The position numbers and the translations under genes are program-made. Shown piece after piece: positions 42,914 to 49,298 of a stretch of DNA of 64,000 nt; position 1 is the first letter of the stretch, and each line of letters starts with the position of its first letter. The DNA comes from a bacterium (GTDB lineage: Bacteria; Armatimonadota; Fimbriimonadia; Fimbriimonadales; Fimbriimonadaceae), in contig PNMZ01000003.1 in NCBI GenBank assembly GCA_013823945.1, positions 62,001 to 126,000 on the forward strand, in the 5' to 3' direction. The notes under the pieces are model-generated. The model saw only the letters and a program-made list of their open reading frames with translations. It did no database searches and had not been told where the DNA came from.

Positions 42914-42978
42914 GCTAGGTCTGTTCTCGATTATTGAACTTTCGATGGTGTTCAGCGTTTTATCTGATTACGAACGCC

Positions 42979-43632
42979 ATGAGCCAATGGGTAGGTACAC
43001 GAACGTTGTCAGCGCGGCATGAATTTGATTCGGCAATAGAGCAAGCGCTGGTCGCGAAATGCAGACAGCAAGACTTCGACGCATTCGGTCGAGTAGTCGA
43101 TGCTTATCAGGCTAGGGTTTTGGGATATGTACGGCGGTTTGTTCGGAACGAGGAAGAGGCTTTGGATGTCACACAAGAAGTGTTCATTAAGGCCTTCCAA
43201 GCGATGGCGGGCTTTGATGGACGGGCGAGTCTTCGGAGTTGGCTATTCCGGATTGCGCACAATCTTTGTATAGACCGAGCCAGGAAGCGTGACCGATCGC
43301 CGCAGGAGCTGAGCATGGAACCAGCAGTTGTAGGTGATGAGCCGTTCGAATTTGCGGATTCGCGATGGGATCCTTCCGAGAATTTGATTACGGACGAATT
43401 GGTTTTGGTCTTAGAATCAGCCATGAACTCGATGAGTGAGAAGTTGCGGACAGTTTTGGTTTTGCATGACCAGGAAGATTTGGGATACGAAGAGATTGCG
43501 AAGACGATTGACGTACCAGTTGGGACGGTGAAAAGCCGACTGTTTTTGGCACGAGCGCATGTGCAAAAATGTGTTCGGGCTTATTTGGACGATGATGGAC
43601 AAGCGCGGGTGAACCCGCGAGGTGCTTTCTGA
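42979..43632 (+). CDS. ECF RNA polymerase sigma factor
   Basis: A 217-residue extracytoplasmic-function sigma factor. Region 2 includes FDAFGRVVDAYQARVLGYVRRFVRNEEEALDVTQEVFIKAFQ and FRIAHNLCIDRARKR. Region 4 has MSEKLRTVLVLHDQEDLGYEEIAKTIDVPVGTVKSRLFLARAHVQK. ATG 42979 was preferred to 42934. The next gene (anti-sigma) starts on its stop codon, so the pair forms a stress-signalling unit. It may control the penicillin-binding protein genes that follow. Confidence 0.93.
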   Translation: MSQWVGTRTLSARHEFDSAIEQALVAKCRQQDFDAFGRVVDAYQARVLGYVRRFVRNEEEALDVTQEVFIKAFQAMAGFDGRASLRSWLFRIAHNLCIDRARKRDRSPQELSMEPAVVGDEPFEFADSRWDPSENLITDELVLVLESAMNSMSEKLRTVLVLHDQEDLGYEEIAKTIDVPVGTVKSRLFLARAHVQKCVRAYLDDDGQARVNPRGAF

Positions 43633-44144
43633 TGAATGAAAAGCTATATTTGAAGTTGAAGAATGAGGAGCCGCTGACGGCGGCAGAGCATCTGGAGCTG
43701 GAGCAAGCTTTGGAGGCGGGGGATCAGTCGTTGGTTGCCCAATACCTGGCCGATCAAGATTTTGTGGAGCCGAGTTTGGCTTGGCGCAGTAGTTTGAATG
43801 AGAAATTGCGCGAAATCGCACCTCAGCCGGTTGCAGACAAGGGGAGTCGGTTCAGGTGGCTTGGCTTTGGTGGTTTGGTAGCGGCTTCTGCAGTGGCATG
43901 TGCGGCCGTGGTTGCGGTGGTTTTTATGAAAGGTGGCAACTCTGTTGAGGTGGGATCTTCAACTCAGGTGGTTGCTGAGAATGATCCTTCGGTTTCACCC
44001 GATGGTTTGTCCGGAAGTTCTGATTTTGGTTCTGCCTTGATTGCAGCGCATCAGTCGGATACAGCTCAGGCGTCGGTTGGAGTTCGGTCTCCTCGAAGTA
44101 CTCCGCGGATGCAAAGCGTGAAGCTCGACTACAATAATTGGTAA
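43632..44144 (+). CDS. Probable anti-sigma factor
   Basis: A 170-residue membrane protein. The cytoplasmic N-terminus is helical and acidic (LTAAEHLELEQALEAGDQSLVAQYLADQD), like other anti-sigma domains but without a zinc HxxxCxxC motif. One TM helix is at ~78-99 (GGLVAASAVACAAVVAVVFM), followed by an exported Ser-rich region. Assignment is from position (TGATG overlap with the sigma gene) and layout; no direct family match is claimed. Confidence 0.7.
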   Translation: MNEKLYLKLKNEEPLTAAEHLELEQALEAGDQSLVAQYLADQDFVEPSLAWRSSLNEKLREIAPQPVADKGSRFRWLGFGGLVAASAVACAAVVAVVFMKGGNSVEVGSSTQVVAENDPSVSPDGLSGSSDFGSALIAAHQSDTAQASVGVRSPRSTPRMQSVKLDYNNW

Positions 44145-44152
44145 GGGGTTTC

Positions 44153-45085
44153 ATGAGGATTCGATGCGGATTGATTGGGGTGTTACTCGGCCTTGGTGGG
44201 CTGAGTTTGGCTCAGTCAATTCCAACGGCGAGTGAACTAGCGACTCGGATCGAGCGGTCGGGCAAAACGGTGAGCTATGCGGCGGTTCGTTCAATCACTA
44301 TTCGATCTGAGCGGGGAAACCGGACATTTGAAGAGCGAGTATTGAGGTCAGGCGACAAGATGTATTTGTCTTATGAAGCGGGGACTCCCTATGCGGATCA
44401 ACAGATTTATGAAGTTGGTGGGAAGCGGTACACCTACACGAAGTCCAATAATGAGTTGAGAGTTGCACCAATTCGTGGCGGGGGGCTTGAGACCTATAAG
44501 TTACTGGCTGAGGCGGCGATAAAAGGTGCGGTAAAGGTTTCAAGAGGAGATGCGGTTGCCAGTCGGGCGACATTCTATGTTGAGATTGCGTCGGATCGAG
44601 GGCGAGGAACCCACAGGATTTGGGTTGATCGCGAAAAGTATGTGGTTCTGAAGCGCAGTTTTGCCGTGTCATCGTCGGAGGAAATTGGTGGGTTCGAGGT
44701 TCTGAAGATAGACTTTTCGGCAAAGATTTCCAGTAGCAAGTTTAAGTGGCCGTCCAAAGCGAAGCTGATCACGGTTCAGGACGATGTCCGGCGTTTGGCC
44801 AAAGAGCTGAGCGTGAAGCCGATGATGATCCCTGACAGTGGAAAGATGGCCTTGGTTTCAACTGGCAAAATGGAAGTCCGGGGACAGAATATTTTGCGCC
44901 AATTTTATACAGACGGTGAGCGCAGGTTGAGCCTTTTTGTTATGAAGCAGACAGATGCCGAGATGCGGTTCTCGATGCGGGGAGTTGAAGTGCATCGGTG
45001 GAACTCGGGTGGAATGACATTGATCTTGATTGGGGATTATTCCGAAGCTGAGCTGAAAAAGTTCGCGGCTCGGGTGAAGGCCTAA
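44153..45085 (+). CDS. Secreted RseB/LolA-like sensor protein
   Basis: A 310-residue exported protein (signal RIRCGLIGVLLGLGGLSLAQ). It has a half-barrel pattern like RseB/MucB or LolA (KTVSYAAVRSITIRSERGNRTFEERVLRSGDKMYLSYEAG; THRIWVDREKYVVLKRSFAV) and a small C-terminal domain (KMALVSTGKMEVRG..YTDGERRLSLFVMKQ). Following a sigma/anti-sigma pair, an RseB-type role in protecting the anti-sigma factor is likely. It overlaps nothing and begins 8 nt after the anti-sigma stop. Confidence 0.75.
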   Translation: MRIRCGLIGVLLGLGGLSLAQSIPTASELATRIERSGKTVSYAAVRSITIRSERGNRTFEERVLRSGDKMYLSYEAGTPYADQQIYEVGGKRYTYTKSNNELRVAPIRGGGLETYKLLAEAAIKGAVKVSRGDAVASRATFYVEIASDRGRGTHRIWVDREKYVVLKRSFAVSSSEEIGGFEVLKIDFSAKISSSKFKWPSKAKLITVQDDVRRLAKELSVKPMMIPDSGKMALVSTGKMEVRGQNILRQFYTDGERRLSLFVMKQTDAEMRFSMRGVEVHRWNSGGMTLILIGDYSEAELKKFAARVKA

Positions 45086-45145
45086 GAATTGGTACTGGCT
45101 GACACCTGTCTGGTGAGGGAAACGTCATAATGAGGGGACTGTCTT

Positions 45146-47575
45146 ATGGCAATCACAATTCGGAAAAAAGCTTCAACTAAAGCGAAGGTTAAACCTTCTT
45201 GGAAGCGAAAGGTGAAAGTAGTGTTTGCTTGGGCATCAATTTTGGGGATGGTTGGGTTTATGGGGGCCTCGGTTGTGGCTTACCAAAAGCTTGAAAAAGC
45301 AAAGCTGTTGGTTCCGGATTTGCCAGGGATGATTGAGCAGCTTAACACAAGGCCTTCCAAGATTTATTCAGCCGATGGGGAGCTCCTCTATTCCATTCAG
45401 ACGGAGTATCGGAAAGCGGTGAGCTATGGGGATATTCCAGAGATGGTTCGGAACGCGATGTTGGCGGCTGAGGATAAGAGGTTTTATGAGCACAGCGGAG
45501 TTGATGCAATTGCCTTAGTACGGATTGCGGTTGTGGCCTTGAAGGATCGAGAAGCATCGCAAGGGGGTTCCACATTGACGATGCAGATTGCCAAGCGATT
45601 GTTTACGAGCGATAAACAGACGCTTGACCGAAAGCTCGATGACATGGCCCTGGCCGTTGAGATCGAAAAGCAGTTTACGAAAGATCAGATTCTTGCTCTC
45701 TACATGAACCAGGTATTTTTTGGGGAGCGGGCTTACGGCATCAGTGCGGCGGCGGATGTCTATTTTGGGAAGACATTGGAAGAGCTCACGATTGCTGAAG
45801 CAGCAATGCTGATGCGGTGTGTTCGTCGTCCCAGTGATGAGAATCCAGTTCGGAATTTGGAAGTAGCGATCAAGAACCGCAACGTCGTCTTGGCGATCAT
45901 GCGGGAAGAGGGGATGATTACTTCGGCCGAGTATCAATCGGCGAAGAGTGAGCCAGTGAAGCTGGCGGATCAGCGACCTCGAGCGGTGACTGGTTCCAAA
46001 GTTCACCCCTACTTTGTGGATTACGTTTTGAATGAGTTGGCAAAGAAGAAGATTGATATATCCGCGGGGGGATATGAGATCAAGACAACTTTGAAGACCA
46101 AATATCAACGGATCGCGGAAAAGGGCGTTGACAAATGGATTGATCGTCTGAAAGGGTACCGCGTGAACCAGATGGCTATGCTGGTGACGGACGAAAATGG
46201 TCGGATTGTGGCGATGGTTGGTGGTCCAGACTATGACAAATCCGAATTCAATATGATTTGGATGGGGCCTGGTCGACAATTGGGCTCAAGCATGAAGCCG
46301 TTCGTCTATCTGACGGGGCTTGATCGAGGGATTTACAGCGAAGGGTCAACGATTTCGACCAAGCCAATTCGGAAATCGGGAACCAGAGAATACGTTAAGG
46401 GTGGGGCTAATCGTGGGAATATTTCGATTGCTTCGGCACTCGCTGGCTCTAATAACACGGCGGCAGCAAGGGCCATTGAAGAAGTGGGTGAGCAGAACAC
46501 GCTCAATATGTGCCGTAGGAGTTTAGGATTCCGCCGCAGTAATTTGATGGCGGTTCAGAGCCTCTCTTTGGGATCGGGTGAGGTTTATATGACCGAAGTT
46601 GCAGAGGCTTATTCGGTCTTGCAAAGTCATGGGGATCGGTATCCGACTTATGCGATTGAACGAGTGATTTATCCGGACGGGCGCGAAGAATCGCTTGCTC
46701 CGAAGAAAGCGCGGGCGGTGGTTGATTCGGCTTCGGCGGAGTACATTGATTTGGCTTTGCGACAGGTGGTGACGAGTGGAACCGGTCGCGCGGCGAGTGG
46801 AGTGCGGAACGCTCGGGGCAAGACGGGAACAACGAGTGACCACAAGGATGCGTGGTTCTGCGGTTACACCGACAAATTGGTCGGGTTAGTCTGGGTGGCG
46901 AACGAGCAGATCATTGATGGTCGCCCGAGTACACAACCGATGCGGGGTCTGTTTGGAGGGGAAGGACCGGCGCGGGTTTGGAATGACATCATGGGGGATA
47001 TCCAGAAAGAGGTGGGAGAAAAATCCCGTAGCTTTGGACGGATGCCGAATGTATCTACATCTGCTCCGGATGAAGACGAAACTGACCCGGATAATACGAC
47101 CCCGGATGAGCCAGTCGAAGTACCTGAACAGCCCGAAGACCAGGTGACACCGGTGGTTGATCCGGACGATACCGGTGACGGAGGCTCAACTCCGCCGGCG
47201 ACAAATACAACTGGGACAACCGGGGGCGGCAACACCACAGGTGGAGGGAACCAGGGAGGCGGGGAGGACGTTGTTTATGTCAGTGTTTGTGCGGATTCGG
47301 GTCAGAGGGCAAATGCCTACTGTCCAGAAACGGTTCGACGACCGTTCTTCAAGGGTTCTGAACCAAAAGGGGGTTGCCCGCTCCACGGGGCGACCGCTGA
47401 AGTGCCCGATGGGTCAATCGTGATTACAGTGGATTGGTTGCGCGATGTCCGTTATACATACTCCGAACGAAAACAGAGTCACGTTTCGCAGCCTCATCGT
47501 TCCGCTTCTGTTGTTGATCTTCTTCGCAATTTCGATTTCGCAGCTGTGGTTGCTTCAAATCGTTCGCGCGGATGA
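45146..47575 (+). CDS. Penicillin-binding protein 1A-type bifunctional synthase
   Basis: An 809-residue class A PBP that polymerises and crosslinks peptidoglycan. One TM helix is at ~30-50. The GT51 domain has Glu109 (AAEDKRFYEHSG) and GGSTLTMQIAKRLF. The transpeptidase domain has Ser381-x-x-Lys384 (GSSMKPF), SNN (AGSNNTAAA) and Lys559 (GKTGTT). A Thr/Gly/Pro-rich linker then leads to a Cys tail (VCADSGQRANAYCPETV..GGCPLHG) known from many PBP1A proteins. Its last 131 nt overlap the PBP2 gene in another frame. Confidence 0.95.
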   Translation: MAITIRKKASTKAKVKPSWKRKVKVVFAWASILGMVGFMGASVVAYQKLEKAKLLVPDLPGMIEQLNTRPSKIYSADGELLYSIQTEYRKAVSYGDIPEMVRNAMLAAEDKRFYEHSGVDAIALVRIAVVALKDREASQGGSTLTMQIAKRLFTSDKQTLDRKLDDMALAVEIEKQFTKDQILALYMNQVFFGERAYGISAAADVYFGKTLEELTIAEAAMLMRCVRRPSDENPVRNLEVAIKNRNVVLAIMREEGMITSAEYQSAKSEPVKLADQRPRAVTGSKVHPYFVDYVLNELAKKKIDISAGGYEIKTTLKTKYQRIAEKGVDKWIDRLKGYRVNQMAMLVTDENGRIVAMVGGPDYDKSEFNMIWMGPGRQLGSSMKPFVYLTGLDRGIYSEGSTISTKPIRKSGTREYVKGGANRGNISIASALAGSNNTAAARAIEEVGEQNTLNMCRRSLGFRRSNLMAVQSLSLGSGEVYMTEVAEAYSVLQSHGDRYPTYAIERVIYPDGREESLAPKKARAVVDSASAEYIDLALRQVVTSGTGRAASGVRNARGKTGTTSDHKDAWFCGYTDKLVGLVWVANEQIIDGRPSTQPMRGLFGGEGPARVWNDIMGDIQKEVGEKSRSFGRMPNVSTSAPDEDETDPDNTTPDEPVEVPEQPEDQVTPVVDPDDTGDGGSTPPATNTTGTTGGGNTTGGGNQGGGEDVVYVSVCADSGQRANAYCPETVRRPFFKGSEPKGGCPLHGATAEVPDGSIVITVDWLRDVRYTYSERKQSHVSQPHRSASVVDLLRNFDFAAVVASNRSRG

Positions 47576-49298
47576 GCTGAGGGAAGAAGCCAAGATGACG
47601 GGGCTTGTCCTCGATCATACTTTGGCCCCCCGAGGGAAGATTTATGATCGGACGATGAGGCCGATTGCGGATGTTAAGCCTCGAGTTGTTATTACGGCTA
47701 AGCCAATTGTGCTCAAGAGCAATCCGGAGGCAATGGAGCGGCTTGCCAGGATCCTCGGGACAACAACTAAGAAAATTGAATGGACTTTGAACCAGCAATG
47801 GAGTAAAGGGAACTTTCCGACAACGATTTTTGTAGGAGCTACGGTTCAGCAAGCGACCAAAATAGCTGAGTCAGGCGAAGATGCCTTCCCGGGGGTTGGA
47901 GTGCAGACGTTGCCTATGCGAAGTTATGGCGATACTTCATTTTTGGAGCATATCTTGGGGTTTGTCTGGGTTCCTACGGCTTCGATCGAGGAGGAATACA
48001 AGGAGGAGGGAATGGAGTTCATTCCGCCATATGTGGGGCGGGATGGGATTGAACGGATTTATGACCGGCAGTTGATGGGGAAGCCGGGTTCGACGACTTA
48101 TACACTGGATCGGAAGCGGAGGCCACTTCGAGTGGTGATGTCTGAATCGCCGACTCCGGGCGAATCGCTTGTGCTTTCAATAGACATGGAAACTCAGCGA
48201 GTGGCTCGGGAAGCACTTGGCGATCGGAAAGGGGCGGTCGTGGCGCTCGATCCGAATACGGGTGAAGTACTGGCGATGGTTTCGACTCCCGGCTACGACT
48301 TGAGGATTTATGAAGGGGGATTGACCCAAACAGAATTCGATTCTATCAATCTCAATAAAAATTCACCATTGCTCAAGCGAGGCATGGCGGGAGAATATCC
48401 GCCGGGATCGACGTTCAAGATTGTTACGGCAATGGCGGCTTATCAGGCGGGGAAGTTCAATCCTTCTGCCGCTGTGAGTTGTCCCGGATATTTGACCGTG
48501 GGGAATCGGCGCGTGAAGTGTGAAAACCATCCAGCGGCGACCTACGGATTTCATATGGCGATGACCAAGAGCTGCAACAGTTTTTTTGGAAAGATGAGTC
48601 AGCGACTGACGGCTGAAGAATTTAAGGCGACTGCAGATCAGCTGGGGTTTGGTGTACGGTCGGGGATTGATTTGCCCGGAGAGCGCAAGGGCGTCTTTCC
48701 GGATCGGGACTTTATCAAGAAGGCTCACAATCGGCCCTATTCGGCCGGGGACGCAAACAACATTGGAATTGGTCAAGGAGATGTTTTGGTCACCCCACTC
48801 CAAATGGCACTGTTGGTTAGCATGGTAGCTAATGAGGGTGTCTGCTACAAGCCGCGCGTTCTGAGGGGGGTGATTGAGCAGAAGGAGGGGGCCAAGGTTC
48901 AGTTAACAAAACCCGAGGAGCTTCACCGATTTGATGCGACCGATGAATTTTGGCGAGCAATGAAAGGCTCATTGATTAACGTCGTGAATGCGGGGACAGC
49001 GCGGAGTAGTCAGATTTCTGGCATTCAGGTGGCGGGGAAAACGGGAAGTGCAGAGAATTCTCACAGCCGCAGGACTCACGCTTGGTTTGTAGGCTACGCC
49101 CCAGCAGAGAAGCCCAAGATCGCTTTTGCAGTATTAGTTGAGACGGCGGGGCATGGTGGTTCTGTCGCAGCACCGATTGCAAAGCAAGTTGTCTCGACTT
49201 ACTTACGTGACCGTAATCAGAAAGTGAATTCCAATGCGGTTAAAATTGGCTTGAGCTTGGAGCCAGATTCGTCAGGTGACACGCCCGAGTCTGAATAA
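47445..49298 (+). CDS. Penicillin-binding protein 2 (class B transpeptidase)
   Basis: A 617-residue class B PBP, MrdA- or FtsI-like. The TM helix (SLIVPLLLLIFFAISISQLWLLQIV) is encoded entirely within the overlap with PBP1A, so ATG 47445 is needed. Then a PBP dimer region (APRGKIYDRTMRPIADVK), Ser322-Thr-Phe-Lys325 (PPGSTFKIVTA), SCN (KSCNSFF) and Lys532 (GKTGSAENSHSRRTHAWF). It probably acts in elongation or spore-like wall synthesis with PBP1A. Its 3' end overlaps the O-antigen ligase gene on the other strand by 82 nt. Confidence 0.94.
   Translation: MSVIHTPNENRVTFRSLIVPLLLLIFFAISISQLWLLQIVRADELREEAKMTGLVLDHTLAPRGKIYDRTMRPIADVKPRVVITAKPIVLKSNPEAMERLARILGTTTKKIEWTLNQQWSKGNFPTTIFVGATVQQATKIAESGEDAFPGVGVQTLPMRSYGDTSFLEHILGFVWVPTASIEEEYKEEGMEFIPPYVGRDGIERIYDRQLMGKPGSTTYTLDRKRRPLRVVMSESPTPGESLVLSIDMETQRVAREALGDRKGAVVALDPNTGEVLAMVSTPGYDLRIYEGGLTQTEFDSINLNKNSPLLKRGMAGEYPPGSTFKIVTAMAAYQAGKFNPSAAVSCPGYLTVGNRRVKCENHPAATYGFHMAMTKSCNSFFGKMSQRLTAEEFKATADQLGFGVRSGIDLPGERKGVFPDRDFIKKAHNRPYSAGDANNIGIGQGDVLVTPLQMALLVSMVANEGVCYKPRVLRGVIEQKEGAKVQLTKPEELHRFDATDEFWRAMKGSLINVVNAGTARSSQISGIQVAGKTGSAENSHSRRTHAWFVGYAPAEKPKIAFAVLVETAGHGGSVAAPIAKQVVSTYLRDRNQKVNSNAVKIGLSLEPDSSGDTPESE

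Follow-up and report, generated by a model that had tools for sequence, protein, structure and literature searches.

A 131-nt out-of-frame overlap of class A PBP and PBP2 genes in a Fimbriimonadaceae bacterium, probably formed by loss of a stop codon

In the stretch of bacterial DNA analysed here (called the window; 64,000 nt, part of contig C3 of a 3.16 Mb genome with the handle G000), the gene for a class A PBP runs out of frame into the start of the gene for PBP2. We consider it probable that this is a stop-loss overlap between operon neighbours which is nearly neutral and has been tolerated more than selected. The features concerned are the following.

45146-47575, + strand: class A PBP gene (PBP1A-like) with an extended C-terminus; ORF of 809 aa with domain matches
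47285-47386, + strand: C-terminal Cys/His motif (VCADSGQ...CPLH), the usual end point in relatives; found in 77 of 91 readable junctions
47387-47444, + strand: extension of the class A PBP across the old spacer, 5' of the PBP2 start; 58 nt
47445-49298, + strand: PBP2 gene (mrdA-type class B PBP); ORF of 617 aa, TIGR03423, PBP_dimer and Transpeptidase
47445-47575, + strand: out-of-frame overlap of the class A PBP and PBP2 genes, 131 nt; from the ORF coordinates, stop codon counted
47490-47564, + strand: PBP2 membrane helix, about residues 16-40; from the translation, limits judged by eye
47573-47575, + strand: present TGA stop of the class A PBP, made by the PBP2 codons GAT GAG (D43-E44)

The class A PBP matches Transgly with 198.5 bits and Transpeptidase with 70.4 bits, both above the Pfam cut-offs. 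Its score against TIGR02074 (PBP_1a_fam) is 462.7 bits, below the curated cut-off of 508.75, and therefore the name PBP1A is approximate. PBP2 reaches 505.8 bits against TIGR03423 (pbp2_mrdA; cut-off 455) and carries the Pfam domains PBP_dimer and Transpeptidase. Only one gene in the genome has a Transgly domain, and it is the class A PBP of this pair, so the cell's only recognised class A PBP adjoins its PBP2. Two SEDS genes and four MreB-family matches above the cut-off, two of them strong, are also present in the genome, all outside the window. The pair closes a compact same-strand run (42934-49298) which reads ECF sigma factor, a protein in the anti-sigma place (without a match), a weakly RseB-like protein (20.1 bits, far under the cut-off), class A PBP and PBP2. 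This run may be an envelope-stress operon with the cell's only class A PBP.

According to the ORF coordinates, the overlap takes in the first 43 codons of PBP2 plus two bases of the 44th, and the codons of the class A PBP start on the third base of the PBP2 codons. The original prediction, made from the sequence of the window alone, described the overlap as out of frame and apparently real, with the PBP2 start and the whole membrane anchor inside it and no later start that would keep the anchor. These points were all confirmed: the two ORFs share the 131 nt, the N-terminal hydrophobic helix (about residues 16-40) is fully included, and no other in-frame start occurs within 90 nt apart from a pair of TTG codons, both in the helix. 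In the genus of the window, the PBP2 start is kept at residue 1 in all eight genomes (7 ATG, 1 GTG), and a later start was ruled out on these grounds.

Junction DNA was taken for 100 of 109 genomes. The nine genomes omitted gave weak matches only (G020, G058, G060), no match at 1e-80 (G062, G087, G089, G090, G096) or a PBP2 near the contig end (G070). Both genes were readable at 91 of the 100 junctions; the other nine comprise two at contig ends (G084, G101), six without a recognised class A PBP beside PBP2, and G040, in which the class A PBP stop and the PBP2 start adjoin when read separately from the census. Overlaps of at least 60 nt occur at 4 of the 91 junctions, all within the genus of the window and all in the same phase: 131 nt in G000 and G006, 128 nt in G007 and 83 nt in G004. 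Elsewhere, a 49-nt overlap in the other phase was found in G046, from another family, and one of 10 nt in G044. The automatic census was wrong in two cases, since a run of N shifts the frame in G013 (the true stop is 11 nt 5' of PBP2) and the 43-nt overlap listed for G063 is in fact a stop 3 nt 5' of PBP2. At 68 of the 91 junctions, or 70 once these two are corrected, the stop ends at most 30 nt before or less than 10 nt after the PBP2 start.

The rarity stated in the original prediction agrees with the literature (Palleja et al.). In PMC2478687, most long co-directional overlaps were judged to be artefacts, and a missed frameshift or a wrongly chosen PBP2 start would make the present one an artefact too. 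Against this, the overlap is seen in four species with separate assemblies and the PBP2 start is conserved throughout the genus, so that we regard such an error as highly improbable. A sequencing error was ruled out because four species carry the overlap, and the frameshift allowed for in the original prediction is not needed. The closest relative among the genomes compared is G006, whose PBP2 is 91% identical to that of the window over the longest piece. Compared with the window, the PBP2 frame of G006 (L002) lacks one base at each of two sites, in or beside C/G runs, which may be sequencing errors or a real break.

The ancestral state can be read from the position of the stop relative to the Cys/His motif. 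Among the 77 junctions in which the motif was recognised, 68 have 0-10 residues after it, and tails of 35-62 residues are confined to seven of the eight genus members: 62 residues in G000, G006 and G007, 58 in G003 and G005, 47 in G004 and 35 in G002. The tails of G046 and G044 have 20 and 14 residues. The sole genus member with a short end is G001, with 3 residues after the motif and 69 nt from the motif to PBP2. In a tree of both proteins from 39 genomes, the genus branches as G001, G002, (G003,G005), ((G007,G004),(G000,G006)), with support of 99-100 for each grouping. As an observation apart, the class A PBPs of L034, L037, L039, L040, L041, L042 and L044 (family f5) apparently contain two tandem copies of the motif, judged by eye.

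This comparison shows that the overlap is not ancestral and that the class A PBP lost its stop after the motif within the genus; the tree topology places the loss after G001 branched off. The frame then crossed the spacer and, in the lineage that leads to G000, G006, G004 and G007, entered PBP2. Most simply, the PBP2 overlap arose once, in the ancestor of these four species, because the tree groups the four carriers. The stop loss is not very recent, since the PBP2 proteins of G004 and G007, both carriers of the overlap, show only 63-64% identity to that of the window. The original prediction counted against itself any relatives that stop before PBP2 and so point to a recent stop-codon loss; such relatives are largely what we found and the stop was lost, though not very recently.

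These are the properties of an overlap formed by stop loss, that is, by 3' extension: the upstream gene is longer than in relatives, the downstream start is normal and no sequencing error is involved. The same longer upstream 3' end, normal downstream start and length of 2 mod 3 describe the long phase-1 unidirectional 3'-extension overlaps of PMC3887535 and PMC2478687 (category iii), and 2 mod 3 is the phase in which long overlaps are given as most frequent (PMC3887535 and PMC10666635). The present case differs from these in two respects. It exceeds 60 nt, which the models treat as very long, and four species carry it, while all 68 overlaps of category iii in PMC2478687 were judged to be misannotations or errors.

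The length of the overlap can be largely understood from the genetic code. Each class A PBP triplet in the overlap takes the third base of one PBP2 codon and the first two bases of the next, and a stop in this phase is possible only beside PBP2 codons starting with AA, AG or GA. The helix codons of PBP2 are mostly NTN, which gives NNT triplets in the upstream frame, and the upstream frame stays open across the helix because NNT triplets cannot be stops. For example, it is a TTT AGC pair at a helix serine that ends the frame earlier in G004, at 83 nt; the sister species G007 and G004 differ in overlap length (128 versus 83 nt). After the PBP2 starts of 95 relatives without the overlap (related genomes, so that the counts are not independent), the median open length of this frame is 149 nt, with at least 83 nt open in 61 of 95 and at least 128 nt in 60 of 95. 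The corresponding values for the other frame are a median of 37 nt, 21 of 95 and 14 of 95.

A stricter null than this comparison is synonymous recoding. When the PBP2 start of the window was recoded in 4000 trials, the median first stop came at 26 nt, with at least 83 nt open in 30% and at least 131 nt in 12.6%; for the PBP2 genes of G004 and G007, at least 131 nt were open in 28%. A length of 131 nt by chance is therefore possible, not certain. Given the stop loss, the length of the overlap is largely unremarkable and follows from the code: the membrane-helix phase effect largely accounts for the length without selection.

The original prediction also held that the overlap ties the synthesis of the two proteins together, which the comparison does not bear out. 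Of the 100 junctions examined, 91 have the class A PBP and PBP2 genes side by side, in most cases with no more than 30 nt between stop and start, so any coupling may predate the overlap and work otherwise. Many relatives of the PBP pair resemble, in having stop and start a few nt apart, the termination-reinitiation pairs with spacings of -4 or -1 nt in PMC10666635, in which reinitiation at native pairs is nearly lost with a start about 20 nt beyond the stop. In the window, by contrast, the stop is not a few nt from the downstream start but 131 nt into PBP2, and coupling by termination-reinitiation is unlikely. PMC10666635 measured gaps, not starts far 5' of the stop; for the latter, coupled phage pairs at -38 and -50 nt are cited in a review (PMC12548453). 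Since the window's stop lies outside both published ranges, internal initiation is to be expected. Each protein would then have a start of its own, that of PBP2 being used internally as ribosomes translating the class A PBP move through in the other frame.

Phage MS2 coat-lysis (-50 nt) is likewise a pair whose second gene starts within the first and in a different frame. In PMC12548453, however, the MS2 coupling is experimental and involves structure at the start site, whereas the PBP pair is known from sequence and gives no folding signal. Predicted folding around the PBP2 start has z values of -0.75 (G000), -0.84 (G004) and +1.29 (G007), and no unusual folding was predicted in any of the five sequences tested (z from -1.57 to +1.29). 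A conserved RNA element was rejected, as there is no Rfam match in 47200-47800 and the folding is unremarkable. The anti-Shine-Dalgarno pairing at the PBP2 start is average in G000 (-4.6, equal to the median of 99) and weak in G004 (-2.2) and G007 (+0.4).

Such average or weak pairing would suit a selected coupling in which ribosomes on their way to the class A PBP stop must pass over the PBP2 start, unfold the messenger at that point and so set the output of PBP2, the extension being kept for that purpose. The same-phase overlap is indeed retained in four species, and RNA unfolding is the mechanism favoured for large overlaps in the review (PMC12548453). The absence of unusual folding at the PBP2 start and of an Rfam match speaks against it, and neither the overlap length nor the tail sequence is conserved; we consider this coupling improbable. 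A further proposal, that some ribosomes shift by +1 within the overlap and produce a class A PBP-PBP2 fusion, draws on the position of PBP2 in the +1 frame and on both frames being open across the overlap. No slippery site common to G000, G004 and G007 was seen by eye, however, and the PBP2 frame is open 5' of its start for just 21, 3 and 3 nt, which makes a fusion barely credible.

The tail itself could be a recent functional addition to the class A PBP, overprinted on the PBP2 anchor. Dual coding of this kind was first backed by a dip in synonymous change between the closest pair, G000 and G006: PBP2 codons 2-43 show 3/41 synonymous changes compared with 179/538 in the rest (p 3.3e-4). The two sequences are identical for 108 nt, from -25 to +82 of the PBP2 start (47420-47526), which is the longest run in about 3 kb (the next is 41) over which the mean is about 12 substitutions per 108 nt. 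No significant dip at the PBP2 start was found in nine control pairs, two of which were lower without significance. However, all three changes in the overlap are synonymous for PBP2 and alter the class A PBP tail, and the low region is wider than the overlap at either end, spanning about -265 to +231, with the overlap not different from the next 34 codons (p 0.28). A regional cause, either recombination between lineages or constraint at the translation start, accounts for the dip no less well than dual coding does.

The flanking dip and the deeper pairs together weakened the dual-coding reading. The PBP2 synonymous shares do not differ between the inside and the outside of the overlap: they are 0.65 and 0.64 for G004-G007, 0.52 and 0.56 for G000-G007, and 0.71 and 0.67 for G000-G004. 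The likeness of the tails in these pairs does not exceed that of the corresponding frame in relatives lacking the overlap (z values of -1.0, -1.3 and -0.5 against a reference of 1747 non-independent pairs), and no constraint on the tail was detected in the three deep pairs. The tail of G004 has also lost 15 residues compared with that of G007. On the side of a functional tail are, besides the dip, small hints in G003-G005. In the small gene described below, the part under their class A PBP tail has pS 0.30, compared with 0.69 for the rest of that gene, and the tail before that overlap has pN 0.055 and pS 0.375; these values, from small counts, hint at constraint. A control from the upstream part of the class A PBP in this pair (pN 0.405) was set aside as meaningless, since it compared the genes unaligned across indels. 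Lasting selection on the tail was thus not found in the three deep pairs, and G000-G006 show a regional dip. The dip may reflect a recent, short-term constraint, and a working tail is, in our judgement, distinctly improbable. Under the nearly neutral stop loss that we prefer, the extra 62 residues would form an outward-facing tail behind complete catalytic domains and would for that reason do little harm. The overlap would then persist because it is nearly neutral and because the coding of PBP2 tends to hold the frame open.

A different structure was found where more than 150 nt separate the class A PBP from PBP2. There are 12 such junctions (G003, G005, G022, G092, G034, G031, G105, G085, G086, G072, G065 and G066), a thirteenth in the tally, G013, being the misreading mentioned above. 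Each contains a small ORF, about 74-120 codons long, that encodes a single membrane helix close to its start, resembling the PBP2 anchor, and a mostly basic C-terminal part (in G086 it was read by eye and its start is not fixed). A profile of ten small proteins searched against 85 family genomes recovered eleven of the 12 loci with E of 1.7e-17 or better and did not find that of G086; its weaker matches fall at the PBP2 start, except for one in G090 whose gene is unchecked. In the reverse direction, a profile of 92 PBP2 starts gave 5 of the 7 small proteins a higher rank than any of 1400 block shuffles; the protein of G031 equals the best shuffle, and that of G022 is indistinguishable from the shuffles. 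Pfam gave no match for the two small proteins tried. No PBP2-anchor small protein is named in the titles and abstract openings of the literature searched, and no mention of Fimbriimonas was found in a separate set of papers, neither of which proves absence. As a speculation, the small gene could be a paralogue of the PBP2 anchor that competes for the partners of PBP2.

This small gene is the one into which the class A PBP tail runs in G003 and G005. Counted from the shared ATG, the overlap there is 122 nt long, and its phase is that of the PBP2 overlap in the window. It is conceivable, though rather unlikely, that the overlap of the window took a different route, in which the extended class A PBP first ran into a PBP2-anchor-like small gene, the state still seen in G003 and G005, until a loss of that gene exposed PBP2. 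The shared phase agrees with this, G003 and G005 are the sister group of the four overlap species, and the distance from the motif to the next start is similar to theirs (55 nt in G003 and G005, 58 in G000, 61 in G004 and G007). However, the spacers are without clear similarity, the agreement in phase is possible by chance, and G002 and G001 are without the small gene, so that it could equally be a gain in G003 and G005. A broader proposal joins the two cases: the class A PBP 3' end would be selected in this genus to run over the anchor of the next PBP2-type gene (PBP2 in four species, the small gene in two), gating the output of the partner, with the tail as a young functional extension. We give this little credence.

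By the stop-loss reading, the overlap is of a known kind, and close relatives reveal its ancestral state. Co-directional overlaps as long as this one have usually been taken for errors (PMC2478687), which makes the case worth recording. More generally, when stop loss carries a frame into a membrane-anchored neighbour in this phase, the extension would tend to be long. For the control of PBP2, the small gene is maybe a more interesting lead than the overlap itself.
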